Below, piece after piece: positions 43,327 to 61,835 of a stretch of 64,000 nucleotides of DNA. Position 1 is the first letter of the stretch; each line of letters starts with the position of its first letter. This stretch comes from Flavobacterium tructae (GTDB lineage Bacteria > Bacteroidota > Bacteroidia > Flavobacteriales > Flavobacteriaceae): assembly GCF_002217475.1 (NCBI RefSeq), contig NZ_MUHH01000003.1:107519-171518 (forward strand), given 5' to 3'. A program made the translations under genes and the position numbers. Under the pieces are notes generated by a model. That model was not told the origin of the DNA, did not search any database, and was given only the letters and a program-made list of their open reading frames with translations.

Positions 43327-44301
43327 TTAGTCGTGAACCGGACTTTGTGTACAAGGACAGTTACTAATGGCTTGCAAGAAATCGAAACCAATAGTTACCG
43401 AGTGTGTTCCCGTGTTGTAATTCCCTAAATTGTTAAACATTACCTGATACGAATACCCAAAGTAGAACTTAGATTTCATAAAACCTACCATTGGCCCAAC
43501 GGATAATGGTTTTGGGAACTGATCGTTTAAGAAACGGTAAGAAACTCCAATCCAGTAATAATCCTCGTAACGGTTGTAACGTCTGTACTTGAAGTTAAAA
43601 TCGGTTGTAGAACGTTTATCACTTGCAAAGTATTGATAGTAAAGCGATGGTTCGTATTCGATACGGCTGTTTTCTCCGTCTTTAAAAACAAATCCTGTAT
43701 ATACCTGATAATTGGAAAGTAAACTAGGCTCTACTCCTCTGTATTTGTTAGTGTTTTTCTTTAGTACGTTATTCGCATTAAAACTGATATAAAATGCTTT
43801 GTTACGGTACAAAGCACTTACATCGAAGTTGCTGTTTGCGGTATATCGATTGTCCGTTACACTTGGATCTAAAATAGGATGCTCGATGGTGTTATTGAAT
43901 TCGTCAATATCAATACGGAAACTATTAAAGTTGTACGAAAGTCCGAAAGACAAGTATTGTTTCGAATAATAATCCAGAATAATGTGGTGCGCAAAGGAGA
44001 TCTTAGCTCCAGTCTGGCGCGTATATCCATTCTTATCATTGTACACATTGACACCCACTCCTGAACGGTCCAAAACTCTAAAATCGGCATAAAGCGACTG
44101 GTTGTCCGGCGCATCTTTTATCCCTACCCATTGGGTAAGTCCATTGGCTCTAATTCTAAGGTTATCGCCGATACCTGCGAAGGCCGGAGAAATAACAAAA
44201 GGATTATCGGCTAAATACTGTGTAAAAACCGGTAGGTTTAACTCTTGGCTGTAACTTGTTGTTACAGCCATGAGTACTAAAGATAAAATAAACTTTTTCA
44301 T
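43327..44301 (-). CDS. sprF: PorP/SprF-family type IX secretion partner
   Basis: The chosen ATG at 44301 begins a clean signal peptide (MKKFILSLVLMAVTTSYSQ) and gives 324 residues; in-frame ATGs at 44325 and 44328 are possible. The PorP/SprF signature follows (LPVFTQYLADNPFVISPAFAG), then GLTQWVGIKDAPDNQSLYAD and a series of outer-membrane beta-strands. It ends GYSYQVMFNNLGNYNTGTHSV and a short Cys-containing tail. SprF-type proteins are needed for secretion or anchoring of the partner adhesin encoded next to them. It starts 44 bp after the sprB-like stop, matching the known sprB-sprF order in Flavobacterium johnsoniae. Confidence 0.92.
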   Translation of the reverse strand: MKKFILSLVLMAVTTSYSQELNLPVFTQYLADNPFVISPAFAGIGDNLRIRANGLTQWVGIKDAPDNQSLYADFRVLDRSGVGVNVYNDKNGYTRQTGAKISFAHHIILDYYSKQYLSFGLSYNFNSFRIDIDEFNNTIEHPILDPSVTDNRYTANSNFDVSALYRNKAFYISFNANNVLKKNTNKYRGVEPSLLSNYQVYTGFVFKDGENSRIEYEPSLYYQYFASDKRSTTDFNFKYRRYNRYEDYYWIGVSYRFLNDQFPKPLSVGPMVGFMKSKFYFGYSYQVMFNNLGNYNTGTHSVTIGFDFLQAISNCPCTQSPVHD

Positions 44302-44345
44302 TGTAATAATTTTTTTAGATAACATCATTAGGGGCTCTTATTTTG

Positions 44346-47300
44346 TTATCTGTATAAAGTGAAATGTCCTACAAACTCACGTGCATCTTTCTCGTCATTT
44401 AATTTAAGAACATACCAGTAATCTCCTGATGGTAATTCGGCACCATTGTATCTACCGTCCCATTTTTGTCCGTAACGGTACTTGGCAATTACACGACCGT
44501 ATCTGTCGAAGATTGAGAATTCAAGGTTGTTGTAAATGTTTGTACAACCAGGACCCCAAGTGTCATAAACACCATCTCCGTTTGGAGTGAAGTAGTTGTC
44601 AAGACACACATCTACATAAACTGCATGAACTGTTATTGTTGCTGTACATCCGTTTTGATCTCTTACTACTACTACATAATCTCCTGTTTTGTAGATTTTG
44701 TATTTGTTAGAAGAAGTAAACGGCTCTCCGTTGAAACTGTACTCGTAAGCAGGTGCTCCACCGGCTGCAGTAACCGAAATGATGTTCATTTCAGGTTTTC
44801 CTGTTGACTCAGCAAGTGTTAACTTCTCATAAGCTCTTATTTCAAAACTTGCCGTTGGTACTTTACATCCATTCGTATGTCTTGCTACAATGTAGTGCGT
44901 TCCAGGAGCAATATTGGTAAAGATATTTGCTGCCTGCCAAGGACCTACATCACTATCAAGTGAATAATCTATTTGTGTAAGATCTGTATTGCTCTCATCT
45001 ACTGAAACGGTTACCATATTTGTTTGAGCGTTGTTCACACAATCATAATTGGTTACGGTAGTTGGATCAAGAACAACCGGTAAAGGCATGTTTTCTACAA
45101 ATTCATTCACACATCCCTGAGCATCCTTAACGTAAACGGTATGAACTCCTCCTGAAAGATTAGTAAAATCAAATATAGTTTGAGTTGCCGTACCTTGTGT
45201 ATACGTTCCGTTTTTATTGTCAAGACTTACACTATATGGTGCAGTACCTCCTTTAACTTCGATACTGAATGCTCCATCTTTATCTCCTTTACAAACTTCC
45301 GGAATCATAGAGTTTGGAAGTTCTGTAACGATTAAAGGTTTTGGCTGAGTGATTTCGATCTCATCGATAACATAACAACCATTTTCATCCTGAGCTATAA
45401 CTGTATATTTACCTGGTGCAAGTTTATCAAATGTGTTTTTAACATCAAACTGATCTAAATCCGGTGATATTGCATATTTAATAACTCCTGTACCACCTGT
45501 TGCAGCAACTACGATCTGACCGTTACTTTCTCCAAAACAAGAAACATTGGTTGGTGTAAATGTAGCCTGAATAGCTGTAGCAGGTTGTTTAATTTCGATA
45601 GCGCCTGATGTCGCAGGACAATCACCACTAGCTACTTTTACAACATACGTTCCTATTGGAAGATCTTCGAATCTGCCAGTAGGTTGTGCCGGTCTAACCA
45701 CACCACCTGCAGTATTTTCTAAAGTATAGATATAGTTTCCTAAACCACCTTTTGCATTTGCTACAATAACTCCTGTAGCTTCGCCCATACATTTTACTAC
45801 TGCATTGGTCACATCTAATTCTATTACTAATGGCTCTAATGGATCGATTTTAACTTCGTTAGAAATTTTCGCCACACAACCTTTAGCATCTTTTACATAA
45901 TATTGGTATTTACCCACTGGTACCGCGAAGGTAACAGAAGTTGCAAATGAACCAGTTGTTGTTGTAAAAGTCTGATCGGTACTGTATGTATATGGACCAG
46001 AACCTCCTGTTGCACTTAACGTAAGTGTTGATTGTGTATTACAAGTTTGTGTCGTTGCCAGCACTAAACTTGGAACTACTTCTGTTGGTTCTGTAATTAC
46101 AACATTTGCTGATGTTGCAGAACATGTAAATCCGTCAGTAACTGTGATACTGTAAGTTCCTGCCGGTAAGCCTGTGAAAACAGGGTTACTTTGTGGACCT
46201 GATGAAACAACCGGATTTTCTGACAACATATTCAAGGTGTACATATAGTTACTTCCCTGACCACCTGTTGGAGGGTTTACCGTAATTATTCCAGATCTGT
46301 CTCCGAAACATGGTAATACTGAAGCTGTTGCTGTTGCACTAACCACAATTGGATCAGGAATCTTCAATGATTGTGTTGCTGATGCCTGACATCCTTTACC
46401 ATCTTTAACATTAACTGTGTAATTACCTGCAGATAATCCGGTAAAATTACCGTCTGTATTATTTGCAATAACTGCTCCGTTTAATACTAACTCATATTGG
46501 TAATTCGTATCCCATCCACCTGTTGCGGTAGCTGAAATTTCGCCATCATTATTACCTGCCACACAAGTGATTTCAGATTTTGTTGTTGTTACAACTAAAG
46601 CAGCGGTAGGCTGTCCTATTGAGAAAATAGTTGAAACTGAACAATATGGTTTGCCTACTAAAGTAGCGTTTACCGTATACTGACCTGCACGAAGACCTGT
46701 AATAGAAACCGGACCAGCATTTGCTGAACGAGTTAATGGAACATTTACAGGACCTGTAATTGTGTAATCAAATATACCTGCATCATCACTTGGAAGTTTT
46801 TGATTATCAACAAAAGTTAAGTTCACACTTCCATCAGCAGTTCCAAAACAAATTTCAGCTACTACCGGAGTAGCTTTAATCTCGAATGTATTTGGATTAG
46901 TTACGTAATGGGCTTTCTCAATTTTACATCCAGTTAACGAATTCTCAACTGTAATTAAATAGTTACCAATTGGTAATGCTGTAAACACTCCTGTCGTGTT
47001 AGTATCAGTAAAAGTACTTCCGCCTATTCCTTTAATAGTGTAAACTATTTGAGTCGGTGTCGGTGTACCACCCGTTACAACAGCTTTAACAGTAATGTCT
47101 TCATTATTTACACAAGTAATGTCTTTATCCACTGTTACTGTAACATCGTCCAGGCTAATAAAAGGCTTAATATCGATTACCGATGTCGATGATCCAACAC
47201 AACCTTTATCGTCGAAAACATTTACAGTATAAATTCCTCCTGCAAGATCAAATACAGTATAAGTATTTGAAGTACTATTTTGAACTTCAACCCCATTTTT

Positions 47301-50300
47301 CATGAATTGATATAAAACATACTTACCAGATCCTCCAGTTACAGTATTTACTGTAATTGTCGCATTTGTATTTGTGTTTGTTCCTGCTGTACAACCAAAC
47401 TGAGTAAATACAACATTAGAAACAACAATTGGAGCTGGTTCAAAAATTTCAACATCTTCTAAATCTTTACATCCTCTTCCAGATGTAACTGTTACTGTAT
47501 ATTGACCTTTTGGTAATCCTGTGAACACATTTGAAGTTTGATTAGGTCTAAGAACTGGTCCCGCTGTAATACTGTAATAGTAAATTGGGTTGTCATTTCC
47601 ACCTGTTTCATCAATAGTTGCAGTGATCGTTCCATTAGTAAATGTATTACAAGTAACATCTGTGTGTGCTAAAGTAAATCCTTTAATTGGAGTCGCAGGT
47701 ATAATTTCAAATTTAACGGTTCTGGTACAACCTGTAGTCACATCTGTTACAGTAATTGTGTGGTTTCCAGGACCGATATTGGTAAATATTCCTGATGTCT
47801 GACCAAAGTTTCCATTTAGGCTATAGCTATAATTTGCTGGGGTTGAACCACCAGAAGCTGTAGCTGTAATAGCTCCATTGTTAGTGTTACAGTCTGGTAA
47901 AGCTGTGATCTTAACATCTAAAGCCAAAGCTGGGAAAATATTAACTACTGCCGTCGTTTTTACTTCACAACCATTTCCATCTTTTACGGTTACATCATAA
48001 GTACCAGATGTACTTACTGTAAATGTTGGGCTGGATTGGAATCCACCACCAATACTATATTCAATTGGTGCTACACCTGTAACTCCTGTAATTGTAAAGG
48101 TATACGTTCCGTTTAATGGATCCGGGCATTGGCTAAATGGTGCCACTGACGGAGTTGTTGGTAATGCATCTTCCACAATAGTTTGAGTTTTCATTACCGG
48201 ACATCCGTTAAGGTCTTGTACATAAATATCCCAATTTCTATTTGCACCATTGTTAGTATCAACAGTAATAACATTATTTGTTCCAAAAACCGTAGGAGCC
48301 GCTGACAATGAAACAACTGCAGCATAACGATAAGCAGGAGTACCTCCGGTTGCTGTAATCGTTATTTGAGCCGTTTTATTGTTACAATTTGTATTTGTAG
48401 CAGTAGATGTAAAATCTAAAATTGAAGGCTCTTTAATCTCAAAGTCAACAACCTGATCCTGACATCCTGAAATTCTGTCTACTACTGTAAATGTATACTT
48501 ACCTGCAGCTAAACCAGTGTAGCTTATAACATCACCTGTTTTAGTCGCTGTTCCGGCAACTGGTGCCAATGAATAGATATAATCAGCAGGCGTAATATAA
48601 CCGCTTACAACAAATGATGCCGTACCGGTGCTTCCTCCATTACATAACACATCCGTTAATAACTGAGTAGTAGCTTTAATTTTATCAGATTCTTTAATCA
48701 CGATAGCTTTTGTTGTACTACAACCATTAGCATCCGTAACTTTAATTTGATAAGTATTTGGTAATAATCCAGGGAAAATACCAGTTGTATTATTAGTAAC
48801 AGCCGCTGCCGGTGAAACTATTTCGTATTTGTAAGGCCCTACACCACCTGTTACCGTATTTACGGTAGCAGTAGAAACTCCTCCCATAGTATTACAATAA
48901 ATTGGTGTTGCTGTAATGTTCATATCAGTAGGAGGCGTGTAAGGATTTACCGTTACGTTTCCTGAAACTCTACATCCATTCGCATCAATTACAACATAGA
49001 ACACTGTTCTAGGAGCTGTTATAGTGCTTACATTTAATGTTGAAGCATCTCCAAAAGTAACACCATTATCAAAACTGTATTTATATCCTGGTGTACCATT
49101 AGTAGCCGTTAAAGTTACTACAGCATCCTGTGGTGTATTAGTTACAGTACATCCAAATGGAGTAACTGCAGCAGTAGCATTCAAAATAGTTGGCTCTGAA
49201 ATAGAAACTGTTTTACTCACTACACATTTCTTAGCATCTCTTACGTATACTGTATAAGAACCTTGACCTAATGTTCCGAAAATATTCGATGCCTGATATG
49301 TTGTACCATCAATACTATATTCATAAGGAGCAAGTCCGCTACCGGCAGTAATTGTAATGCTTCCGTCGTTTCCTCCGTTACAACTTACGTTGAATTCCGA
49401 AGTAGCTATAGTAGGCATCACGATAGGATTCACCACTACAGGTTTTGAAACTGACTGACAGTTTTTACTATCTGTAACTCTAAAAGTATAGGTTCCTGCA
49501 ATATTAGTTGTGTATGGAGATGTTGTTGGTGTAAAACCACCTCCATTAAATGAAACTTCATAGTTAGTATACACAGTAGATCCTTGCGTAGCTGTTAATG
49601 TAACAGTTGCCATATTAGGAGCCGCACAAGTTAAATCCTGAAGTACAGCGTCTAATAATAATTTCTGATCCAATTGGTAAACATATGGAGTTGTTGCATC
49701 ACAACCGTTAGCATCTCTCACGTAGAAAGTGTATGAACCCGGTGCGTTAAGCACAAAGTCTGGGCTTGTTTTAAATCCATTACCAATACTGTATGTTAAT
49801 GGACCAACTCCATGACCTACCAAAGTAACATTTACTGGAGAACCATCGTAACAAACACCCGTAATTGGGTCAATTGATGGTAGAGGATCTGTCGCGATAG
49901 TCAATGGTAACTGAGCAATACATCCGTTCGCATCTTTTACATAAGCAATCCAAACTTTAGATGGATCTAAAACTGCGCTTGGACTAGTATTGTAAGCTCC
50001 TGCTGCCGGTGCCGTTGGGCTCACAGCATAAGCGTAAGTATAACCAGGCGTTCCACCTGAACCTACAACGCTTACTTTTGCACCAAAATTACAATTCGCA
50101 TTAACATTAGAAACTAGTGTTAATAGTAATGGTGTTGCCGGTTCGCTAACATCCACATTTGCTGTTGCAACACAACCAGTAGCTACGTCAACAACATCTA
50201 TTTTATAATTACCTACTGCTAAATTAGTAAGTGTAACTTTAGGATTAGTATGTGTACCCGCAACCGCAACTCCGTTAATAGAATACGTATAAGTTCCTGC

Positions 50301-53300
50301 AAAGTTGCCTACAGTAAACTCAACAGAACCATTAGGTGTTGCTGCTACTTCGTTACAACTTACATCTTTAATTAATTGACCAGAAACTGTAATATTAGTT
50401 ACCGGTTTTATTGTTAATGATTTCTGGAATGAACATCCATTAGCATCTGTTACTTTGAAAACATAAGTACCAGGCAATAAACCATTGAAAACATTTACAG
50501 TACCATTATTTACTGCACTTGCAGTTGGCGAAACGATTTCATATTTCGTAATCGCATATCCACCCGCTACAGTAACTGTAATACTTGTTGCAGGAGCATT
50601 ACAAGTAATTGCAGCACCCGTAAAAGTTAAATCTGTAATTTTTTGGTATGGATTAACTGTTACTGTATTATCAAATAAACATCCGTTAGCATCTTTTACA
50701 TAATAGTGAATAGTCTGTACTGCACCATTGTCTAATACTGTTAACGTATTAGCGTCAAAATAGTTAGCAGAACCATCAAAATTGTATTTGTAAGGTGCTG
50801 TTCCTGTACCTGCTGTAACATTTACTGTTACCACAGCTGGCTGTGCAACATTACTTGCATTACAAGCGTAGTCTGTAACCGCTGCAGTGGCATCTAATAT
50901 AAGTGGCTGACCTACTGTAAACGGTTTAGATGCTGAACATCCTCTGCCTGAAAACACCGTAATTGTATAAGTGTCCGCAGGAAGATTTGAGAATACATTA
51001 TTTGTTTGTACCATTCCTAGCGGAACAGGCAAAATAGAATAGGTATAAACCGGGTTATCGCTTCCGGCAGCTAAGTTTACGGTAATAGTTCCGTTACGTG
51101 AGCCATTACAAGTAGCATTCGTTACTACAGCATCAAAATCTACCGGTGTTGGTGCAGAAAGCTCAACCGGAGCTGTTGCAGTACATAGCGTATTTGTATC
51201 TGTAATCGTTATGGTGTAAGTTCCGGCAGGAACTCCCGAAATAACATTCCCAACAACAGTTCCAACAGGAGGCGCAATACTATAAGTAAACGGTCCTGCA
51301 CCACCAATTGGTGTTAATGTTATAACTCCGTCATTGTTCGCACAAGTCGGCAATGCTGTTATCACTGGTGTTACACCTAGTGGTTTATCAATCGTAATTG
51401 ATTTAGTATCAACACATCCGTTTGCGTCTTTAATTTTAATTGTATTTAATCCTGAATTAAGACCCGTTACGTCATATGGTACAGCTGTTGTAATAGTAAC
51501 AGGTGCATATACGCCACCGTTTACACTAATTTCGTAAGGCGAAATTCCTGCTGTAGTAAGAGAAACTCTAACCACATAGGCTCCTTCAGCCACACATTTA
51601 TTTACAACTGATAATGCAATAACCGGACTAGGATCCAAGCCTATTGTTGTATTAACTCTGTCTATACATCCTTTTGCATCTCGTACAACAATATCCCAAT
51701 TTTGTCTTGTAGTATAATCTAAAACCAAAACATTACTAGTTCCAAAAGTTGTTGGTGTAAATCCAGGAGCACCCGCTGCGTACTCATAAGGTCCCGTACC
51801 ACCAATAGTGGTTAGTGTAACTTGTGCACCAACATTACAAGTAGCATTTACATTTTTTGTAATTGTTGTTTTAAGCGGTTGAACCGGTTGTGATACTGTA
51901 AAACTAAATGTAGTAGAACAAAGTGTTCCTCCTGCCTCAGTAACTCTTAGAACATAATTTCCTGCTTTCAATGTTGAAATAGTTCCAGAAACCGGACCGC
52001 CTAATGGACCAGTTAATGTGCTATTAATTGCCGGTGAAACCGGTAACAAGGTTAAAGCATTTAATACTTCATAATTTACTGTAGTAATTGATGGATCAAA
52101 ATCCCTTACAGTAAACGTCAATATTCCTGTTGAAGTTCCATTACAAGTAACATCTGTCACAGTTGTTCCCGTAACTTTTATACTTGATGGTGGTGGAGGC
52201 GTTGTAAATTCTAAAATAGAAATACAATCATTAATATCTTTTACTTGTAAAAAGTAAGTCGTTCCATGTTTTAAACCTAAAAAGGTATAAGTTGGACTCG
52301 TTTGTGCAGGGCTTTCTGTTAAAGGTTGTCCAAAAATAGAGTATTTATAATCCGGCGTACCACCTGAAGTAGTTACGGTAACATTCACACCTGTAGCACA
52401 ATTATTTGAATCTGCAACAGCGCTCATCTTTAAGTAAGGAGGAGTTTCAATTCTCAATTTACCACTTCTGTATTCACAACCATTTGCATCAACAACAGTA
52501 ATATAATAATCTCCAAAATTCAATCCTGCAAATTTGTAAACAGGTGTTGGATTTACTGTAGATGTTTCTGTGTAGGTTGCAATTTGTGTAAAAGCATTAT
52601 CATATAATGTATATACATACGGAGCTGTTCCTCCTGATGTTACATTAACATCAAAACTACCAGGCGTATTTAAATTACATAAAATAGCATTACGTACGAT
52701 ATTAACAACAATTGGAGCTGGATTAACCAAAGTAATTGTTGCAGGTACCGAAGTACATCCTTTAGCATCTTTTACTACATAAGTATACGTTCCGGAAGCT
52801 AATCCTCCAAAAACTTTTGTAGTTACAAAAGTAGTACCTCCATCAATACTGTACGTAAATGGAGAAACTCCGGCTGTAGCTGTCAATGTTACAGAACCAT
52901 CTGTATAACCGTTACAGGTAGGATCAACTTTTGCAGCAGTTCCTGTTACTGTTTGTGGTGATGTCACTACAACTTTGTTGGTTATTTTTGTACATCCACT
53001 AGCATCTGTTACCTGGAAATAATAATCTCCGGCAGTATTTGTTGTAAATGTATTTCCAATCAAATCAGGAGATGTTCCAAAAGTCACACCATCCGTAGAA
53101 ACTAAATAAGTGTAAGGCGCTAAACCTCCTCCGGCGTTAACTGTAATTGTTGCATTAACAGGAGCCGCACAAGTAATATCTTTCACTAAAACTGCACTGG
53201 CTGTTAAAACAGAATTTACTGTCACTGTAACCGTATCTGTACAGTTATTTGCATCTTTTACCGTAATCACATAAGTACCCGGTGACGTTACTGTAAAAGT

Positions 53301-56300
53301 ATCTGCAGGAGATGGTGCAACACCACTGCTAATAGAGTAAGTTAAAGGAGCAATACCTCCTGTTCCCACAGCTTTGATACTAAATGAAGTTCCTGTAGAG
53401 GTACATTGGTTAGTAACCGAAGCCGTAACATCCGGAACTGCATCTTTAATAATTGCTGCGTCTAATTTAATCACACAACCATTTGCATCTTTTACCCAAA
53501 CATCCCAATCTGAGATAGCAGGATCAAGATTAGCTGTGTTACTTGATTTATAATCTGTCGATACAGGAGCCACATTATTGTGTACAAATGCATAAGAATA
53601 TGTTGGCGTTCCACCAGTAGCATTAACTGTTACCTGTGCATTTGGAACATTACAATTAGCATTTACAATTGTAAGCGTTCCTCCTAATGGATTTACTGGC
53701 TCTGTAATCGTTATTGATTTGTTTGCCTTACAATTTGTTGTATTATCTGTTACTTCAAGGTTGTAAGTACCCGCAACTAATCCGTTTAAGGTAATCACAT
53801 CTCCTGTTGTTACATTTGTATATGGCAATCCTGCAGGAGTAGATGTTATTACTACTGCATAATTTCCTGTAGCACTAAATCCGGAAATACTGAATTTTGC
53901 AGAACCGGTATTTCCTCCTTTACATAAAACATCGCTTAATTTTGATTCAGCAACTGCAATTGGAGTTAATGGAAGTACTGTATAAGATTGAATAGCAAAA
54001 CATCCGTTTGCATCTGTTACTTTAAAAGTATAAGTGTCTGCCACTAATCCTGTAAATACTCCGGTCGTAGCACCTGTTACGTTTGAAGTTGCAGAAGCTG
54101 GTGCTGTGATAACATAAGCTAAAGCTCCTACTCCATTTGTTGTTGTAACAGTTACAGTACTGGTAGTACTTGCAGCTGGTGAGCATAGAATTGCACTACC
54201 TGATATTGAAACAATAACAGGAGGGTCTAGTTTTTTAATTGTAATTTGTTGAACTGCAGTGGTACATCCTTTAGCATCTTTAACAGAATAACTAATGATT
54301 TGATCTGCTCCGTTATCGTTTACTGTTAACGTATTTGCAGCAGTATATCCACTTCCGTTAAAACTATAGGTATAAGGAGCTGTACCGTCTGTTGCTGTAA
54401 TGGTAACAGTCGCAGATTGTTTCGTATTGGTAACACTACAAGTAAAGTTAGTAGCAGTAGCACTTGCTGTTAATTTTACAGGTTCACCTATTGTAACATT
54501 AACACTTCCTGTACATCCTTTACTGTCTTTTACATAGAAAGTGTAGTTACCTGCTAACAGATTTTCAAATAATGAAGCCGCTGCAAAAGTAACATTGTCT
54601 TTACTGTAGGTATATCCACCTGAACCATTAGCACCTGTTAATTGAACCGTACCTGTTGCAGAACCGTTACATGAAGCATCCACTTTTACAGCAGTTACTG
54701 TAGGAGGTGCAATAGGAGCTACGGTAGCAGATGTTGCAGTAGTACATCCGTTTGCATCTGTAATTGCAAATGTATATTTATCAGCATTAGCAGAAGCAAC
54801 AGAAATTGTAAACGATGTTCCGGTAACATTAATAACTCCGCCAGGAGTTCCTGAACCTTTCGCTACAGTATACGTATATGGAGTTTTTCCTCCGCTAATA
54901 TCAACTTTAATCGTTGCATTTGGAGTTGCACTACAATCTAATTCTTTAGTAACCTCTGCTAAGGCACCAACTTTAGGATAAACTACTACAGGAACTGCAG
55001 CAGCTGTTGTACAACCATTTTTATCTTTTACCGTTACGGTATAAGATCCTGCGCTTACTGTAAAAGTATTGCTAGTCTGGAAATTAGTTCCATCAATACT
55101 ATATGTTAAAGGCACTAATCCTGTAGCAGTAGCTGTAATTGTAAAACTTGAAACGGATCCTGTCTGACATTGATTGTCAACCACCACACTGGTAATAACC
55201 GGTTTAGCGTCAACATCAATTTTTACAGGAACGTTATCCAAACAACCATTTGCATCTTTGATATAAACTACCCAGTTTAATACTGTTCCGTTAACCGTAT
55301 CAACTGTTAGAACATTATTTGAAGCATAAACCGCAGGAACCGGAGCACTTTGTCTTGCTACAGCATAAGTATAATTTGGTGTCCCTCCTGCTCCGGTTGC
55401 TGTAATCTCAGCTGTAAATTTGTTACAATTTACTGTAGTGGCTACAGCAGTCACATCAACAGCTGCAGCTGACTGCGTTAAAGTTACTGTATAAGAAGAC
55501 TGACATTTCGTTAATCTGTCTGTTGCAGTAATCGTATATGCACCTACAGGCTGAGCAGTAGGAACTGCAACAGTAGTTGTAGCTGCACTTACACCAGTTG
55601 CTTGCTGAATGATTGTATTGGCAGCGTTTTTAATAACATAATCATATCCGTTTGCCTTAACACCATTTACGGTAAATTCAATAGTTCCTGTAGAACCAAA
55701 ACATTGAATACTTGTAAGTACTGAACCACCTGTAATAATATCTGACGTTGCTTTAATAGTATGTCCTTTTGTGAATGAACAATTAGTAGCCGTATCGGTT
55801 GCCTGGAAGATATAATCTCCCGGAGTCAGTGATGTAAAGTTTCCGGTTGTATTTGTCGCAGGGTTAAATCCGGCAGGACCAGAAATAATCTGATAGATAA
55901 CATTTGCTGTACTTCCAGTTTTTACCGCTGTCAAAGTTACACGTCCACCAGCCGGAACTGTAGAACAATCATATCCACTATCAACAATAGTGATATCTGT
56001 AATTGGTTCTAAAGCGCCAATTGTAATTGACAATGGTCCAAACTGACAGTTATTTGCATCTCTAACATATGCCGTAACTGTTCCGGCAGCTGTTGTTGAG
56101 TAAGTATTCGTTGTTGTAAAGTTTGCAGTTCCGTTGAAACTGTAAGTATAAGCACCCGTTCCTCCAGAACCAGTAACAGTAACTACCGCTGGTACAGTAC
56201 TTGGTGTACCACATTTAATAATAGTAGCTCCAATAGTTCCAGACACAGCAGTTGGCTGCGTTAATGTAATATTTCCAACAGCAGAAGTACATCCTTTACT

Positions 56301-59300
56301 GTCTCTTACTTGATAAGAATAGCTAATATTTGGATCTAAACCGGAATATAATGAAGTTGTTGACCAACCTAAATTATTAAAATTGTACTCATATCCGCCT
56401 GAACCTCCTGCTCCAACTAACTGTACACTACCATTTTTAAGACCATTACAAGTAATTTGTGTTAGATTAGCAGTAACTGTTGGATTTGTAATAGGACTTA
56501 TTGTAGCATCTATATAAGCTTTACATCCTTTAGAATCTGTAATTTCAAAAGTATAAAGTCCGGCTGTTGGTGCAGGATAATTAAACGTATTACCTGTAAC
56601 ATTTACACTGGCACCGTAAGCACCTGCATCTTTTTTAACTTTATAAGTATAGGCTGCAACTCCATCTGTAATGTCAACTTTAATCGTTGCATTTGGAGTT
56701 GTACAATCCAATGTTTTTGTAATAGAAGCTGCTGCTTTTAACTCAGGAGCAATTACAATTCCGTTTATGGTAACCGGACAATTATTACTGTCAGTAACTG
56801 TAATAGTATGTGTTCCTGCTCCAACATTTGTAAATGTATTGCTGGTTTGTGCAGGTGCACCATTTAAACTATACGTTAGAGCTCCTGTACCTGTAGCCGT
56901 AACAACAAGAGTTGCTCCTTTAGTCCCGGTAACGCAATAATCACTAGTAGCAGCTAAAGATGCTGTTGGCATTGTTGGTGCAACAACATTAACCTGTGCA
57001 GATGCGCTTGAAGAACATGTATATGCATCACGTGTTACAACTGTATAGGTACCGGTAGGAACATTTGCAAATACGCCAGAATTCTGGAATGCAGTTATTA
57101 CCGTAATACCATTTGCTGCTCTTAATTCATATTGATATGCTGGTGTTCCACCTCCTGCAACTGCTGTAATAGTTGCTCCTGTAGTACAAGTAGCAGTTTT
57201 TGTAACACTTGCCGTAATTGTTAATGCAGCAGGAGTACCTACTGGCTGATCGAATGGAAAACTACAAGTTCCGGCTTTATTATCATAACGAATTAAAATA
57301 TTATACGTTTTACTCGTCAAGTTTTTAACTGTAACCGGTGAAGTTTTAGAATTTACCCATGTTGCACCATTATCTAAAGAGTAATCAAAACCATAAGTGG
57401 CATCAAAATTTTGTGCAGATAAGGTAATTTCTCCATTATTAGCACCATTACAGGTTACATCTTTATGACCTACGATTGAAGCTTTAAATGCTTTATCTGT
57501 TCCAATAACAATTGGGAAATCTTTCTCAGCTCCACAAACCTCCGGAATCTGACGTACCCAAATATCATCAACCGCTAAATCATTACCAGAAATAACCTGG
57601 CTGTATGATAAGATAACAAAGTCAAGAGAAGTATTATTTCCAGGATTTAATGTTAATACCTGGCCGCTTCCAAGATCAGTTGTATTATGCCATTTCTCAT
57701 CTCTAGGAATACTTTGTGTATCCTTTGATGCTCCTGGTATAAGAACTCCGTTTTTCTGAAGTTGTATGGTTAATCTTGGAGAAGGTAAATTATTATTTTT
57801 ACTTAATAAATTAAGCATATAAAGTGATACCTGTATGTCCTGATTTGGAATAACGTCATTGATGGTTTTTTTATACAAAACACCACCTATTGGTACCACA
57901 CCTCCAACATTAACGGCTAAAAATCTTCCGTCTTTTATTTGTGGTGTATTATTAATAACTGCCGTATTATCTTTAGGCAGATTCCAGTTAAAACCTGCTA
58001 CGTGCTGTGGCAACAGAGCCTGAGTCACAACATATTCCCCATCATTAAGCAAAATTGGCATATAACCTCCAATACCGCAATCTTCTACAGCATCTTGCTT
58101 TTCCCAACAATAATTAGGGTGAATACCCGGAGTTGTTGTATCTGGTCCTCTGCCAAAATCCTCTGTTAACAAGTTACTGTAAGTAGGTACCGTAGTAACT
58201 TTGTATTTAACTTTTATAGTATGTGTTCCTGAAGGAACATTTGTAAAGACATTATTTGTAATTGGCGTGTTAGGCGTTCCGTTAATATAATACTCGTACG
58301 TATAATTATTTGACGGATTTGTAACCGTAACCGTAGTTGATGCCATACCATTACACCCAAAAACAGGATCAGCCACTGTGATCGTTGGATCGGCAGGTTT
58401 AGGATCTAAAGTAACCTGATAAGGAATTTCGAATATACATCCTAAAGCGTCTTTAACCTGTAAAATAAAATTACCCGGCAACACGTCTTTTTCATTTGAT
58501 GCCTGCCATGTAAGACCACCATCAAAACTAAATTGATAAGCAGGAGTTCCACCCTGAACGTTATTGATACGCAGTTTTCCTCCCTGGTTTGCACCGCTAC
58601 CGTCAGGTAGTGTACATCCGGCCAAAGCCGCAACTCCGGCAGAAGCCGAAATAGCAGAAGTTGGTCCTGTAATTGTTATCTTTTGTATAGGATCTGTACA
58701 ATACTTGATTGGCGTTCCTATACCGTATCTTACAACTACGTCATAAGTTCCCGGCTGTAAATTAGAAAAAACAGGATTAGATTGAAAAGTTACACCACCA
58801 TTAATACTATACCCCATTGTGTACCCGTTTGCTCCGGCAGTAAGTTTTACTTCTATCTTAGAGCTTCCATCATAACAATTACTATTGGTATGATCAATAG
58901 TATAAGCAGGTTTTGCATTATCAGGAACTGTAATTGTTCTTACTATGGTACAGTTGTTTTTATCTACAATTTTAATGGTATAAAGTCCCGGAGCTGTTAC
59001 CACAAACTCATTACTGGTTTGAAAAACAGTATCGCTGTTTATAAAATAGTTGTAAGGTGAATTACCTCCTTCTGTTGTGATTCTGATTTTTCCATCACTA
59101 CATGCAGTAAGAGGTTCTACTAAAGCAACTGTCGCTTTATACTCATTCCAAACCTTACCAACATATATGTACTTAGTATCTTTACAACCATCATCTGTTG
59201 TAACTTCTACGACATAATTCTGGTCTGTATTTAAATTATCAAAAGTATATTCAGAATCCGGCACCGGTCCAACATTCGATAATAAAGTTCCATTATTATA

Positions 59301-61835
59301 AAGTTTATAATAATATTGTGCATTAGCATCGTTTACAGCTACTTTAATTTTACCTTTTTCACCATAACACAATGGCTGTGTTACCTCTTGTACTACGTTA
59401 AAATTCCTTTGTCTGATTTGAATATTCGGAACTGTAAAAATACACGTGTTACCTGTTACACCTGCCAGTCTTATATATACTGTATAGAAGCCCGCAGTCG
59501 TAACATTAAATACATTACTAGCCTGATAAGTTGTTCCATTAATACTGTACTCATATCCGGCAGGAACACCTCCTACTGTAATCGTACCTGGTTTACCGCA
59601 AATAATGTCCGTATGTTTCTCTGTAGGACTTAATGAATTGGTGAAAACATTAAAATAAAAACGGTTAAAACAACCACCGGCATAGTTTAATGTTAATCGA
59701 TATTGTCCGGCAATTTTAGCCAAATAATTTGGTCCCGTTGCAACCTGAGTCCACGAACAAGAAGTTCCTTCGTTAGCACAATTTGGACTACTTGGCGCTG
59801 TACAGCTTGCTTCATCTAGTTTTTCCCAAACAAGGGTAGAACCATCTGAGATATGCGTTTCAATTAGTCTCGAATCATTTGCACCACATAAGAAAAGATT
59901 AGGTAACTCTTTTCCATTATTTGGACAAATTAAGACCTCTCCTTTATACGGAGCTTTTGCATAAGGAATTACAGGGTTGGTATTTGTAGCACCAAATCTG
60001 GTTACTGTAATAGCCTGATAAATTGATCTACAAGGTGCCGCAGCCAAATTGTATACATAATAAGTTCCCGGATCTTTAACAGTAAGTGTCTGTCCTGTTC
60101 CGATTTGTTTTGTACGGGCTTCGTCACTATACCAGGTATAACTTGTATATCCGTTTGCTGCAACTAAATCTACAGTGTCTTTACATAAAGTAACGTTTGC
60201 TGTATACTTACAACCATCAACACCTACTAAAAAGTTAGTCGCTTTTGGAGTTAATATACATCCTGTATTAGTATTGACACTCGGATCATCTGAAATTTGG
60301 AAATCAGGATTTAAAGTTCCTTTGTAAGTGGCATATGCAGAGTTATCGATACTATTAGAACATGCTTCACTCAAGGAATTACAATCCGGAACAACTTTAA
60401 CTTTAAAGCTGATCACTTTTTCTGTTAGAGTATTGGCTTTAACAATAGATTCGTCTACTTTAAAAACAATGCTTCTGGTTGCAGGATCATAACTTTGCAC
60501 CGTTACTCCCGTTGGCAGCGGGTTTAAATCTGCAGGGTAATTAAATATAATATTAATTGGCAGCTGATCTCTAATGGTTAAAGATTTAGCATCATCATTA
60601 CCTGAGTTTCTAATACCAATTTCATAATTTAATTGTTGCCCTAATACTACATTCTGGCCTCCAATATCCGTTCCTGCCGAATTTTTAACAATTTTCGTCA
60701 GTACAATATGAGGCTCAATAATATCTACTGCAAATGCATTAAAATAATAAAAGTAAACGTCCTGAGTACTTCCTAATCTAATATTTGCCGAAGTCTCATT
60801 ATTATCAATAACAATACCTCCCGGTTTCAAAAGGGTACCGGGGTTATTAATATTTAAAATACCCGCATCATACCCTAAGGTGTTAGTACTGGCAGGGTTT
60901 CGATTTAAGAAATCTTCTGTTTTATCCGTAGCCGGATCAACGTAAGTTACACTACTATTAAAGAAGTTATTTGAAGCTCTGATAGCTGTATTTGCTGCAT
61001 TTGTAGCACTAATTGGAATTCCGTTAATTTGCAGATAATCCCCTGCAATCGGCTGATCCCCCTCTAAAGCAGCAAAAGCGAATTTTACACGAACCGGACC
61101 TTTAGGAATGGTCTTGAACCCTGAAACAGGAATATCTAAAGTAGTTGCCCCTCCAATTCCGCTAAAACCGTCAAATGATGTAATGTATTTAGCTGGCAAA
61201 GTTGGGTCTTCATAAACGATAAAAATAGACCAACCTGCTGATAAACCTGTTCCTCCATTAGAACCTTCACTAGACTTAACATTTGCAACGGTATACAAAC
61301 CTTGTGCATTAGCCTGTCCGGTCACTAAAGAAGTAATATCTGCATAACATGCATATGCTTTGTTATTGTCACCACCAATTGGGGCTGCATTAGCATCATA
61401 CACGATCTGACCTGTAATATCATTATAACCACCTGTTGGTAGTTTAAGCTTTACTTTTTCAATGCCTGTACGATCATTTTGCTGTAGGATCGCTCCCCAA
61501 TACAAACCTGCATAAACAATTTTATAACAAGCCGGTTTTGGTACAGTTAAAGTCGCACTACTCGAACTGAAAGTACTGTTGTCATTATCGATATCAATAT
61601 ATTCCATACTGAAATCAGAATTGTATCCGGAACCATTATAGGCATCTTCCGGATCCCTGTTATTGGTATTTCTATTTAGAATATTATTACCAATAAGCAA
61701 CATGTCTCCTTTTAGCCTCTTGTCAAATCTCGGAGTAAATGACTTAAGATTCTGAGAAATTACAACGTAACTTTGAAAAAAAATCAAAGCTAATAAAATC
61801 AATCTTAGGTTAGTAGGTTTTTTCATAATCTTCAT
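44346..61835 (-). CDS. sprB: giant SprB-like gliding adhesin, T9SS type B sorting domain
   Basis: This 5829-residue protein has a signal peptide (LILLALIFFQSYVVISQ). An N-terminal adhesin-like region follows to about residue 370, then a DUF11-like domain (about 375-500; IRNSGNDDAKSLTIRDQLP). Dozens of SprB repeats of about 75-85 residues run to about residue 5700, with recurring CNG at the start, GGxxPYxYS in the middle and DANGC near the end. A ~220-residue non-repeat insert lies at about 1215-1435. Residues 5742-5829 form the gliding-motility C-terminal domain (NYFTPNGDGVYDTWGPGC to FVGHFTLYR), the type B sorting signal for T9SS. SprB moves along the cell surface in gliding. The start could also be the ATG three codons on. 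No frameshift is seen in 17.5 kb. Confidence 0.95.
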   Translation of the reverse strand: MKIMKKPTNLRLILLALIFFQSYVVISQNLKSFTPRFDKRLKGDMLLIGNNILNRNTNNRDPEDAYNGSGYNSDFSMEYIDIDNDNSTFSSSSATLTVPKPACYKIVYAGLYWGAILQQNDRTGIEKVKLKLPTGGYNDITGQIVYDANAAPIGGDNNKAYACYADITSLVTGQANAQGLYTVANVKSSEGSNGGTGLSAGWSIFIVYEDPTLPAKYITSFDGFSGIGGATTLDIPVSGFKTIPKGPVRVKFAFAALEGDQPIAGDYLQINGIPISATNAANTAIRASNNFFNSSVTYVDPATDKTEDFLNRNPASTNTLGYDAGILNINNPGTLLKPGGIVIDNNETSANIRLGSTQDVYFYYFNAFAVDIIEPHIVLTKIVKNSAGTDIGGQNVVLGQQLNYEIGIRNSGNDDAKSLTIRDQLPINIIFNYPADLNPLPTGVTVQSYDPATRSIVFKVDESIVKANTLTEKVISFKVKVVPDCNSLSEACSNSIDNSAYATYKGTLNPDFQISDDPSVNTNTGCILTPKATNFLVGVDGCKYTANVTLCKDTVDLVAANGYTSYTWYSDEARTKQIGTGQTLTVKDPGTYYVYNLAAAPCRSIYQAITVTRFGATNTNPVIPYAKAPYKGEVLICPNNGKELPNLFLCGANDSRLIETHISDGSTLVWEKLDEASCTAPSSPNCANEGTSCSWTQVATGPNYLAKIAGQYRLTLNYAGGCFNRFYFNVFTNSLSPTEKHTDIICGKPGTITVGGVPAGYEYSINGTTYQASNVFNVTTAGFYTVYIRLAGVTGNTCIFTVPNIQIRQRNFNVVQEVTQPLCYGEKGKIKVAVNDANAQYYYKLYNNGTLLSNVGPVPDSEYTFDNLNTDQNYVVEVTTDDGCKDTKYIYVGKVWNEYKATVALVEPLTACSDGKIRITTEGGNSPYNYFINSDTVFQTSNEFVVTAPGLYTIKIVDKNNCTIVRTITVPDNAKPAYTIDHTNSNCYDGSSKIEVKLTAGANGYTMGYSINGGVTFQSNPVFSNLQPGTYDVVVRYGIGTPIKYCTDPIQKITITGPTSAISASAGVAALAGCTLPDGSGANQGGKLRINNVQGGTPAYQFSFDGGLTWQASNEKDVLPGNFILQVKDALGCIFEIPYQVTLDPKPADPTITVADPVFGCNGMASTTVTVTNPSNNYTYEYYINGTPNTPITNNVFTNVPSGTHTIKVKYKVTTVPTYSNLLTEDFGRGPDTTTPGIHPNYCWEKQDAVEDCGIGGYMPILLNDGEYVVTQALLPQHVAGFNWNLPKDNTAVINNTPQIKDGRFLAVNVGGVVPIGGVLYKKTINDVIPNQDIQVSLYMLNLLSKNNNLPSPRLTIQLQKNGVLIPGASKDTQSIPRDEKWHNTTDLGSGQVLTLNPGNNTSLDFVILSYSQVISGNDLAVDDIWVRQIPEVCGAEKDFPIVIGTDKAFKASIVGHKDVTCNGANNGEITLSAQNFDATYGFDYSLDNGATWVNSKTSPVTVKNLTSKTYNILIRYDNKAGTCSFPFDQPVGTPAALTITASVTKTATCTTGATITAVAGGGTPAYQYELRAANGITVITAFQNSGVFANVPTGTYTVVTRDAYTCSSSASAQVNVVAPTMPTASLAATSDYCVTGTKGATLVVTATGTGALTYSLNGAPAQTSNTFTNVGAGTHTITVTDSNNCPVTINGIVIAPELKAAASITKTLDCTTPNATIKVDITDGVAAYTYKVKKDAGAYGASVNVTGNTFNYPAPTAGLYTFEITDSKGCKAYIDATISPITNPTVTANLTQITCNGLKNGSVQLVGAGGSGGYEYNFNNLGWSTTSLYSGLDPNISYSYQVRDSKGCTSAVGNITLTQPTAVSGTIGATIIKCGTPSTVPAVVTVTGSGGTGAYTYSFNGTANFTTTNTYSTTAAGTVTAYVRDANNCQFGPLSITIGALEPITDITIVDSGYDCSTVPAGGRVTLTAVKTGSTANVIYQIISGPAGFNPATNTTGNFTSLTPGDYIFQATDTATNCSFTKGHTIKATSDIITGGSVLTSIQCFGSTGTIEFTVNGVKANGYDYVIKNAANTIIQQATGVSAATTTVAVPTAQPVGAYTITATDRLTKCQSSYTVTLTQSAAAVDVTAVATTVNCNKFTAEITATGAGGTPNYTYAVARQSAPVPAVYASNNVLTVDTVNGTVLNWVVYIKDANGCLDNVPVKIDVDAKPVITSVVVDNQCQTGSVSSFTITATATGLVPLTYSIDGTNFQTSNTFTVSAGSYTVTVKDKNGCTTAAAVPVVVYPKVGALAEVTKELDCSATPNATIKVDISGGKTPYTYTVAKGSGTPGGVINVTGTSFTISVASANADKYTFAITDANGCTTATSATVAPIAPPTVTAVKVDASCNGSATGTVQLTGANGSGGYTYSKDNVTFAAASLFENLLAGNYTFYVKDSKGCTGSVNVTIGEPVKLTASATATNFTCSVTNTKQSATVTITATDGTAPYTYSFNGSGYTAANTLTVNDNGADQIISYSVKDAKGCTTAVQQITIKKLDPPVIVSISGSAILCSPAASTTSTVTVTTTNGVGALAYVITAPASATSNVTGATTGVFTGLVADTYTFKVTDANGCFAIQSYTVLPLTPIAVAESKLSDVLCKGGNTGSAKFSISGFSATGNYAVVITSTPAGLPYTNVTTGDVITLNGLVAGTYNLEVTDNTTNCKANKSITITEPVNPLGGTLTIVNANCNVPNAQVTVNATGGTPTYSYAFVHNNVAPVSTDYKSSNTANLDPAISDWDVWVKDANGCVIKLDAAIIKDAVPDVTASVTNQCTSTGTSFSIKAVGTGGIAPLTYSISSGVAPSPADTFTVTSPGTYVITVKDANNCTDTVTVTVNSVLTASAVLVKDITCAAPVNATITVNAGGGLAPYTYLVSTDGVTFGTSPDLIGNTFTTNTAGDYYFQVTDASGCTKITNKVVVTSPQTVTGTAAKVDPTCNGYTDGSVTLTATAGVSPFTYSIDGGTTFVTTKVFGGLASGTYTYVVKDAKGCTSVPATITLVNPAPIVVNIVRNAILCNLNTPGSFDVNVTSGGTAPYVYTLYDNAFTQIATYTETSTVNPTPVYKFAGLNFGDYYITVVDANGCEYRSGKLRIETPPYLKMSAVADSNNCATGVNVTVTTSGGTPDYKYSIFGQPLTESPAQTSPTYTFLGLKHGTTYFLQVKDINDCISILEFTTPPPPSSIKVTGTTVTDVTCNGTSTGILTFTVRDFDPSITTVNYEVLNALTLLPVSPAINSTLTGPLGGPVSGTISTLKAGNYVLRVTEAGGTLCSTTFSFTVSQPVQPLKTTITKNVNATCNVGAQVTLTTIGGTGPYEYAAGAPGFTPTTFGTSNVLVLDYTTRQNWDIVVRDAKGCIDRVNTTIGLDPSPVIALSVVNKCVAEGAYVVRVSLTTAGISPYEISVNGGVYAPVTITTAVPYDVTGLNSGLNTIKIKDANGCVDTKSITIDKPLGVTPVITALPTCANNDGVITLTPIGGAGPFTYSIAPPVGTVVGNVISGVPAGTYTITITDTNTLCTATAPVELSAPTPVDFDAVVTNATCNGSRNGTITVNLAAGSDNPVYTYSILPVPLGMVQTNNVFSNLPADTYTITVFSGRGCSASKPFTVGQPLILDATAAVTDYACNASNVAQPAVVTVNVTAGTGTAPYKYNFDGSANYFDANTLTVLDNGAVQTIHYYVKDANGCLFDNTVTVNPYQKITDLTFTGAAITCNAPATSITVTVAGGYAITKYEIVSPTASAVNNGTVNVFNGLLPGTYVFKVTDANGCSFQKSLTIKPVTNITVSGQLIKDVSCNEVAATPNGSVEFTVGNFAGTYTYSINGVAVAGTHTNPKVTLTNLAVGNYKIDVVDVATGCVATANVDVSEPATPLLLTLVSNVNANCNFGAKVSVVGSGGTPGYTYAYAVSPTAPAAGAYNTSPSAVLDPSKVWIAYVKDANGCIAQLPLTIATDPLPSIDPITGVCYDGSPVNVTLVGHGVGPLTYSIGNGFKTSPDFVLNAPGSYTFYVRDANGCDATTPYVYQLDQKLLLDAVLQDLTCAAPNMATVTLTATQGSTVYTNYEVSFNGGGFTPTTSPYTTNIAGTYTFRVTDSKNCQSVSKPVVVNPIVMPTIATSEFNVSCNGGNDGSITITAGSGLAPYEYSIDGTTYQASNIFGTLGQGSYTVYVRDAKKCVVSKTVSISEPTILNATAAVTPFGCTVTNTPQDAVVTLTATNGTPGYKYSFDNGVTFGDASTLNVSTITAPRTVFYVVIDANGCRVSGNVTVNPYTPPTDMNITATPIYCNTMGGVSTATVNTVTGGVGPYKYEIVSPAAAVTNNTTGIFPGLLPNTYQIKVTDANGCSTTKAIVIKESDKIKATTQLLTDVLCNGGSTGTASFVVSGYITPADYIYSLAPVAGTATKTGDVISYTGLAAGKYTFTVVDRISGCQDQVVDFEIKEPSILDFTSTATNTNCNNKTAQITITATGGTPAYRYAAVVSLSAAPTVFGTNNVITVDTNNGANRNWDIYVQDLNGCPVMKTQTIVEDALPTTPSVAPFSQCPDPLNGTYTFTITGVTGVAPIEYSIGGGFQSSPTFTVSTSGTYDVTVKDGNGCEVKTTAVVNIFPALALDVKITALPDCNTNNGAITATASGGSTPANYSYSLNGNFGQTSGIFTNIGPGNHTITVTDVTTGCTRTVKFEIIPATPIKGFTLAHTDVTCNTFTNGTITATIDETGGNDNPIYYYSITAGPVLRPNQTSNVFTGLPKGQYTVTVTSGRGCKDLEDVEIFEPAPIVVSNVVFTQFGCTAGTNTNTNATITVNTVTGGSGKYVLYQFMKNGVEVQNSTSNTYTVFDLAGGIYTVNVFDDKGCVGSSTSVIDIKPFISLDDVTVTVDKDITCVNNEDITVKAVVTGGTPTPTQIVYTIKGIGGSTFTDTNTTGVFTALPIGNYLITVENSLTGCKIEKAHYVTNPNTFEIKATPVVAEICFGTADGSVNLTFVDNQKLPSDDAGIFDYTITGPVNVPLTRSANAGPVSITGLRAGQYTVNATLVGKPYCSVSTIFSIGQPTAALVVTTTKSEITCVAGNNDGEISATATGGWDTNYQYELVLNGAVIANNTDGNFTGLSAGNYTVNVKDGKGCQASATQSLKIPDPIVVSATATASVLPCFGDRSGIITVNPPTGGQGSNYMYTLNMLSENPVVSSGPQSNPVFTGLPAGTYSITVTDGFTCSATSANVVITEPTEVVPSLVLATTQTCNTQSTLTLSATGGSGPYTYSTDQTFTTTTGSFATSVTFAVPVGKYQYYVKDAKGCVAKISNEVKIDPLEPLVIELDVTNAVVKCMGEATGVIVANAKGGLGNYIYTLENTAGGVVRPAQPTGRFEDLPIGTYVVKVASGDCPATSGAIEIKQPATAIQATFTPTNVSCFGESNGQIVVAATGGTGVIKYAISPDLDQFDVKNTFDKLAPGKYTVIAQDENGCYVIDEIEITQPKPLIVTELPNSMIPEVCKGDKDGAFSIEVKGGTAPYSVSLDNKNGTYTQGTATQTIFDFTNLSGGVHTVYVKDAQGCVNEFVENMPLPVVLDPTTVTNYDCVNNAQTNMVTVSVDESNTDLTQIDYSLDSDVGPWQAANIFTNIAPGTHYIVARHTNGCKVPTASFEIRAYEKLTLAESTGKPEMNIISVTAAGGAPAYEYSFNGEPFTSSNKYKIYKTGDYVVVVRDQNGCTATITVHAVYVDVCLDNYFTPNGDGVYDTWGPGCTNIYNNLEFSIFDRYGRVIAKYRYGQKWDGRYNGAELPSGDYWYVLKLNDEKDAREFVGHFTLYR
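46500..57250 (-). repeat. six higher-order repeat units of about 1.75 kb inside the sprB-like gene
   Basis: A landmark of the form N-W-D-x-x-V-x-D-x-x-G-C preceded by a CN...GGTP block occurs five times, near 55270, 53510, 51690, 49950 and 48230. The intervals are 1.72-1.82 kb. Matching flanks extend the series to six units. Each unit holds about seven distinct SprB repeats in a fixed order. Units have diverged well beyond recent tandem duplication. Confidence 0.8.
57530..58190 (-). other. non-repeat domain inserted in the SprB array
   Basis: Residues of about 1215-1435 lack the SprB pattern. They read like a secreted beta-sandwich: FGRGPDTTTPGIHPNYCW, then an aromatic-rich stretch, LTIQLQKNGVLIPG, TSLDFVILSYSQVISGNDLA and VDDIWVRQI. 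The closing VDDI element is common in jelly-roll/MAM-like carbohydrate-binding domains. The boundaries cut into a SprB repeat. Confidence 0.6.

Follow-up and report, generated by a model that had tools for sequence, protein, structure and literature searches.

The 64,000-nucleotide stretch of contig NZ_MUHH01000003.1 analysed here, called the window throughout, belongs to a Flavobacterium genome, as judged from the nearest named relatives, and carries on its minus strand a single open reading frame (ORF, 44346-61835) that encodes a 5,829-aa protein of the SprB family. The architecture of this protein is eight seven-domain units plus a cap, in the order N-L-L-S-R-R-X-C, where L and R denote the units of a left and a right arm and S a spacer between them. 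In relatives of this architecture the numbers of L and R units are usually equal. We propose, at slightly less than even confidence, that the chain folds back at its centre and that its two arms lie side by side. The extension of this idea to SprB-type adhesins, as fold-back rods with two counted arms, a length that comes in quanta of 14 domains and the spacer at the apex, is put forward more tentatively still; selection would keep the unit numbers on either side of the spacer identical. The matter bears on how one huge protein can make a filament of set length by which a gliding cell is pulled along.

A seven-repeat period in the window protein

Segmentation with an iterated hidden Markov model (HMM) yields 57 SprB-type repeats above 20 bits (R01-R57), each of about 83 aa. 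Repeats R08-R49 form units 2 to 7, that is, six units of seven repeats in a fixed order with an exact span of 46599-57221. An earlier note on this DNA had claimed six units of about seven ordered repeats, and the lag analysis of R09-R49 confirms them: repeats separated by a multiple of 7 have a mean pair score of 98.3, compared with 57.0 (standard deviation 2.5) for shuffled orders, and none of 20,000 shuffles reaches this value (maximum 68.5). Lags not divisible by 7 are flat, between 37 and 58 up to lag 36, and at lag 35 the score is down to 65.5. The best match lies at a lag divisible by 7 for 39 of the 41 repeats; corresponding repeats are more alike than neighbours, as had also been claimed, and the repeat tree agrees. 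In an ungapped autocorrelation of aa 1541-5000 the highest values are at lags 1178 and 1763; lag 591 comes next among the long lags and is scarcely above lag 1097; a weak peak at 591 is expected because repeat lengths vary.

The tree of the 42 repeats requires 12 position-class changes (shuffled mean 29.2, minimum 24 in 2,000) and 32 unit changes (shuffled mean 27.8), so neighbouring repeats do not cluster and the grouping is by position. The prediction of seven clean clades is borne out only partly: such a clade is seen for class g, and each of the other six classes includes strays or splits off a further sub-type. A second type of c and d is found in units 5 and 7, and a second type of e in units 4 and 7; in the latter two units class f, too, stands apart. 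For the blocks c-d and e-f, every one of the four type combinations is present among the units. This suggests that sub-types have been shuffled between units by recombination inside them.

The landmark W-x-x-V-x-D-x-x-G-C marks the first repeat in five of the six units, at the claimed positions 55274, 53507, 51698, 49952 and 48233 (units 3 to 7). A looser form of this W landmark is class-specific, occurring in 197 of 348 class-a repeats and in 2 repeats elsewhere across 58 proteins with 57 repeats. Exactly two cysteines are present in 56 of the 57 window repeats and in 9,488 of 9,795 repeats from all proteins segmented to that point, minus three near-copies of the window protein, suggesting a disulfide in each domain.

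The six units share 32-41% protein identity. Compared with Flavobacterium tructae, the window units are 94-98% identical on the diagonal and at most 40% off it, and are therefore orthologous unit by unit; this mostly holds with more distant species too. These results support the view that whole seven-repeat blocks were duplicated and then diverged for a long time. Periodicity at the DNA level inside the window was also considered and was rejected, as the units lie at the alignment baseline (67-73% with lenient gaps) and nothing recent is visible. The N and C blocks show 26-33% identity with no excess to the other units; the labels obtained in distant relatives hint weakly that they may be ancient units that keep the register. 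In the 71-repeat protein of F. hercynium, two units are the joint best match of window unit 3 (52/52%) and another two that of unit 6 (49/48%), indicating one extra copy in each arm. Besides its full gene, this species has two further loci with the N-terminal region (L160, L161, L174), and at least one open frame is cut by a contig end.

Repeat number in relatives

The N-terminal 730 aa were used as the query for relatives, and all 120 listed proteins of 644 matching ones were taken. The repeat model was rebuilt on a sample of the relatives' repeats, and weak first hits (<10 bits) lying ahead of the true repeats were discarded. The results show that repeat number is largely quantised across relatives, at 29, 43, 57, 71, 85, 99 and 113. 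Among the 121 proteins including the query, 57 repeats were found in 50, 29 in 29, 43 in 23, 71 in 12 and 64 in six, so that 120 fall into these classes; the remaining one is a partial record with 28. When the set is reduced at 95% N-terminal identity, 97 proteins are left (57 repeats in 38, 29 in 27, 43 in 19, 71 in seven, 64 in five, and one partial).

At the genome level, a match at E <= 1e-60 was present in 157 of 398 genomes of the genus and in 52 of 395 of the order; many open frames have the same lengths, and the rest are cut at contig ends or have another length. From these matches, 50 genes were picked for diversity of length and kinship, of which 28 fit the series (23 included) as counted and 36 after adjustments. 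L064, L069 and L078 were taken as 43, with one repeat-sized gap undetected; a surplus weak hit is present in each of L084 and L105+L106; L091+L092 and L097+L098 were taken as 85, where a relaxed cut-off gives 85 and 84; and L099+L100 was taken as 85, where the retrieved stretch ends at 82. The next 25 genes, of the long kinds, all have 57, 71 or 85 repeats. A second protein search with another query listed 120 of 657 matches, of which 40 had not been listed before, although two had been met through another source. On these 40, which had no part in training, 37 of 39 complete proteins have 43, 57 or 71 repeats after removal of false first hits in two proteins (in P0154 and P0161, hits from residue 601 on ahead of the repeats were removed by hand); two have 37 and 38, and one is partial.

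Class models trained on 57-repeat proteins describe most relatives as N1-N7, (abcdefg)n, C1-C8, with labels that blur in the most distant ones, and the position classes are readable across genera. A universal law of counts was considered and rejected, since it is broken by a lineage that grows in steps of three repeats, by a 23-repeat class, by L063 (30), L072 (58), P0140 (37) and P0158 (38), and by L071, whose count is unresolved. The 23-repeat class is common: 31 of 35 named loci with a frame ending inside the retrieved stretch have 23 repeats and an intact C-terminus (these 31 lie within L184-L230), with members in Winogradskyella, Algibacter and Hyunsoonleella. Of the other four, a Confluentibacter locus has 29 repeats, and the frames of L169, L202 and L226 are broken. 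Relative to the 29-repeat class, the 23-repeat class is missing repeats 7-9 and 18-20, three per half (5 of 5 alignments, made with further members of the class).

Two matched arms around a central spacer

Unit identity matrices of 21 proteins show that the longer ones consist of two arrays parted by one distinct unit. We then labelled units with models for N, L, S, R, X and C, which were trained on 57-repeat proteins only. The 71-repeat proteins of the main group read NLLLSRRRXC in 21 of 22 cases, and the remaining one has a single L called R; a 23rd, L101+L102, belongs to the three-repeat lineage. The 85-repeat proteins read NLLLLSRRRRXC in 7 of 7 cases and two more agree, while the single 99-repeat and the single 113-repeat protein have 5 and 6 units per side. 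In the 43-repeat class, NLSRXC was obtained in 26 of 36 proteins examined (of the other ten, two are partial) and in 21 of 21 of the second protein set. The 29-repeat class has two units on either side of the middle, end blocks counted.

When the spacer was sought without supervision in the 31 proteins that have 71-113 repeats, the exact centre came out in every one, from 3 to 9 possible positions; this set includes near-copies and comes down to 27, 25 and 23 proteins at 99, 95 and 90% N-terminal identity. The repeat midpoint, cap aside, is the boundary between S and R. The last repeat before it, at the end of the spacer, is the longest kind (mean 104 aa, 89 proteins), and the three repeats directly before the midpoint are all among the five longest kinds. 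Simple serial growth, which the earlier note had implied, is not supported: in the relatives a central spacer is flanked by two arrays of matching unit number, and sub-types are shuffled between units.

History of copy-number change

The history of repeat number was reconstructed once, on a FastTree phylogeny of the N-terminal region of 175 main-group proteins with uneven support. Twelve of the 14 non-fitting genes among the 50 were set aside from it (L061, L063, L070, L071, L072, L085, L086, L087, L088, L090, L101+L102 and L103+L104) and the other two, L081 and L082, were unused; P0002, P0003, P0005, P0022, P0023, P0033 and P0050 were omitted from an N-terminal tree as near-identical or partial. 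In this reconstruction there are 56 changes of repeat number, of which 35 are of 14, nine of 28, one of 42 and two of 56, so that 47 are multiples of 14. The remaining changes are five of 7, three of 20 and one of 6. The changes of 7 all concern 64-repeat proteins; those of 20 and 6, four together, concern the 23-repeat class.

Three of the 64-repeat proteins pair with a 71-repeat protein at 99.9-100% N-terminal identity, and are without one right-arm unit; at that place two copies match each other fully, or almost so, in most of their repeats. These three look like cases of very recent loss or of assembly collapse. The near-identical pairs P0025/P0026, P0043/P0044 and P0045/P0046 differ by one whole seven-repeat unit.

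The identity of the youngest duplicates is correlated between the two arms, with a Spearman coefficient of 0.83 (31 proteins) and of 0.86 (58 proteins with 57 repeats); without near-copies it is 0.86 in both sets (25 and 49 proteins), values that are uncorrected for relatedness. At the DNA level, each arm of the 113-repeat gene has four units with 99.8-100% identity, and each arm of the 99-repeat gene has three with 98.9-100%. Both genes lie on contigs of more than 5 Mb.

A proposed fold-back rod and its alternatives

In the fold-back that we propose, the rod would bend back beside the boundary between spacer and right arm to give two paired arms, and such a rod would need arms of equal length. 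Selection would then act against the gain or loss of a unit in one arm until the other arm had changed likewise. The length variants probably arise by unequal recombination among near-identical units, and selection for equal arms would retain only the balanced ones. By analogy with its family, the protein would be exported by the type IX secretion system (T9SS) through its type B C-terminal signal, its C-terminus would be anchored by the neighbouring SprF-like protein, and substrate would be bound along the rod or at its tip.

Filament lengths offer a rough comparison. Published figures are a filament of about 150 nm for SprB of about 6,500 aa (PMC13104615) and a span of about 4 nm for an Ig/Fn domain in work on titin (PMC7427331). 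At about 4 nm per domain, 60-odd extended domains would reach about 250 nm and a fold-back about half of this. The figure of about 150 nm is closer to what 60-odd domains would span when folded back than to their extended length, but coiling would fit too.

Several observations weigh against the fold-back. One lineage grows at the C-terminal side only, through the repeat triplet C5-C6-C7 (for example L085, L086, L088, L101+L102 and L103+L104, with 35, 38, 58, 71 and 77 repeats); this growth would be harmless if that end is the stalk below the fold-back, an explanation made after the fact. The 64-repeat proteins (six records, two of them from one contig) have three left and two right units, with the spacer off centre in 6 of 6. 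Eight of 34 complete 43-repeat proteins are not read as NLSRXC, and 14 of the 50 genes chosen for diversity fit no series or are unreadable. The proline-rich linker (PPPP) of the window's spacer is not conserved, there is no conserved hinge at the midpoint, and the charges of the arms are not complementary (means of -7 per L unit and -23 per R unit). Since the relatives are not independent, the shuffle and rank statistics overstate significance, and the sequence of F. johnsoniae SprB stands outside the comparison. An AlphaFold model of 684 aa, eight repeats across the centre, shows consecutive all-beta domains (pLDDT 85.7), and its pTM of 0.39 leaves unfixed the relative layout of the domains and with it the physical period of about 580 residues presumed in the earlier note. 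The fold-back is a proposal from sequence that no structure shows, and GhpA of Aureispira, the closest solved fold, is reported to assemble as a heptamer whose monomer spans the filament (PMC13319060).

This GhpA precedent of an extended heptamer is the main rival to the fold-back. The filament may be an extended rope of several parallel chains, in which a fixed stagger would set the seven-domain period and the central spacer; we regard this as rather unlikely. The best Foldseek matches of the model are GhpA fragments (9fly, 2.4e-20; 9flp, 2.3e-19), which favours the rope, and a second look at the Foldseek results found GhpA tied with many Ig and FN3 chains, so that only the fold class is safe. 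When relatives of solved structure were sought by sequence with three pieces of the protein, nothing came up beyond weak matches to entries of unrelated name. A rope does not by itself demand equal numbers of L and R units, and an extended chain of some 6,500 aa would be expected to exceed about 150 nm; a 49-domain hook-like protein of 6,596 aa forms filaments of about 180 nm (PMC13319060).

Neutral unequal recombination, in which exchange between aligned copies adds or removes units of seven and the two halves are under no constraint, accounts for steps of seven and for changes that respect the register. Near-identical neighbouring units do exist, and the 64-repeat proteins resemble a 71-repeat protein minus one such unit. 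Odd totals should then arise about as often as even ones and spacers should lie off centre, whereas changes in multiples of 14 outnumber those of 7 by 47 to five among the 56, and the spacer is central in all 31 long proteins; we consider this account already disfavoured and improbable.

We give similarly little credence to a molecular ruler, with one site per seven-domain unit for a periodic partner, as in titin super-repeats, and with equal binding zones flanking the spacer. The legibility of the position classes across genera speaks for it, as does the D-zone of titin with its six super-repeats of seven domains (PMC7427331); no partner of such a period is known from these data, and the equality of the zones is left unexplained. 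An artefact of assembly, by which collapsed or miscounted repeats would give quantised lengths, finds an echo in the three 64-repeat proteins that match a 71-repeat one minus a near-identical unit, and is very improbable, as contigs of 4.4-6.7 Mb carry the 113- and 99-repeat genes and several with 85 repeats, and the window units are too diverged for collapse.

Returning to the fold-back, the matching of the arms points to a quaternary or fold-back geometry, and it is unusual for evolution to be constrained by a copy-number rule that couples two distinct arrays within a protein. The sequence would then allow filament length to be predicted for species whose proteins range from about 29 to 113 domains.

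Comparison with known systems

We found no report of a seven-repeat order or of matched arms in SprB in the open-access literature searched, a scope that leaves most subscription papers outside and is not proof of novelty; the SprB and hook-protein papers in that scope are PMC12635249, PMC10994853, PMC9870892, PMC13104615, PMC13319060 and PMC11205867. F. johnsoniae SprB (6,497 aa) is likened to the window protein by description, its own sequence being no part of the comparison. According to its literature the two share the named repeat family, the type B C-terminal signal, a SprF-type partner gene and giant size, and they differ in that no seven-repeat super-repeat or matched arms are reported for it. 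It was not found by name among the matches listed (80 loci and the protein listings, most without a name).

The A-band D-zone of titin, with its fixed order of seven Ig/Fn domains repeated in a giant filament protein, provides a parallel for which the window protein is a bacterial counterpart. Titin is an unrelated eukaryotic protein; the likeness is one of analogy and no homology is claimed. GhpA of Aureispira is alike as a giant type IX-secreted surface filament protein of a Bacteroidota and as a top fold match of the model, tied with many Ig and FN3 chains in the second look, and differs in the extended monomers reported for its heptamer. The higher-order repeats of centromeres and NBPF are alike in that monomers of fixed order are amplified as multi-monomer blocks, and different in being DNA or other proteins. 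To our knowledge, there is no central spacer with two matched arrays in titin, no seven-repeat order in GhpA and no coupling between two separate arrays in the centromeric or NBPF repeats.

Gene map and neighbourhood

All features of the gene lie on the minus strand. The N-terminal region (aa 1-734, 59634-61835), which served as the source of the query, has a signal-peptide-like start (by eye), Ig-like domains and a DUF11 region (PF01345, aa 394-491; also TIGR01451). The unit boundaries follow from the HMM segmentation, the unit models and the tree. Unit 1, the N block (R01-R07, aa 735-1538, 57222-59633), contains at R06/R07 a non-repeat insert of about 230 aa (aa about 1217-1450, 57486-58187), visible as gaps in the segmentation. 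This insert is present in most long members and missing from a class of relatives of 3,216-3,281 aa; in L066, L069, L076 and L088 a gap of similar size is shifted about 600 aa further on. The left arm follows with unit 2 (L1, R08-R14, aa 1539-2125, 55461-57221) and unit 3 (L2, R15-R21, aa 2126-2716, 53688-55460), and then the spacer S as unit 4 (R22-R28, aa 2717-3321, 51873-53687). The right arm comprises unit 5 (R1, R29-R35, aa 3322-3903, 50127-51872) and unit 6 (R2, R36-R42, aa 3904-4472, 48420-50126), followed by unit 7 (X, R43-R49, aa 4473-5079, 46599-48419), unit 8, the C block (R50-R56, aa 5080-5670, 44826-46598), and the cap repeat R57 (aa 5671-5742, 44610-44825). The mean net charge per unit (44826-59633; 89 proteins) becomes more acidic toward the C-terminus: N -10, L -7, S -20, R -23, X -27 and C -36.

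The type B T9SS C-terminal signal (aa 5743-5829, with the stop, 44346-44609) was recognised by TIGR04131 (5.8e-25, cut-off passed) and by CHU_C PF13585 (3.4e-15). SprB repeats (PF13573) were detected on two pieces of the protein, with 1.1e-24 and 8.4e-100. Directly downstream on the same strand lies a sprF-like gene of the PorP/SprF family (43327-44328; PF11751 4.4e-70, TIGR03519 2.2e-70). The PF13573 repeats, the type B sorting domain and the adjacent PorP/SprF-family gene are thus all present, and the gene setting is that expected of a SprB-type gliding adhesin, for which a function in gliding is predicted.

Upstream, a gene of 1,398 aa on the minus strand (61962-64000) runs beyond the window end; its N-terminal PorP/SprF domain is fused to a long C-terminal part. 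Its position would fit sprD, and sprC, sprD, sprB and sprF are reportedly a four-gene operon. A 493-aa gene with weak Ig-like matches is also located upstream of the adhesin gene. Elsewhere in the window, the two neighbouring minus-strand ORFs 18281-20341 and 20614-22674 are exactly 686 aa each and are possibly a tandem duplication.

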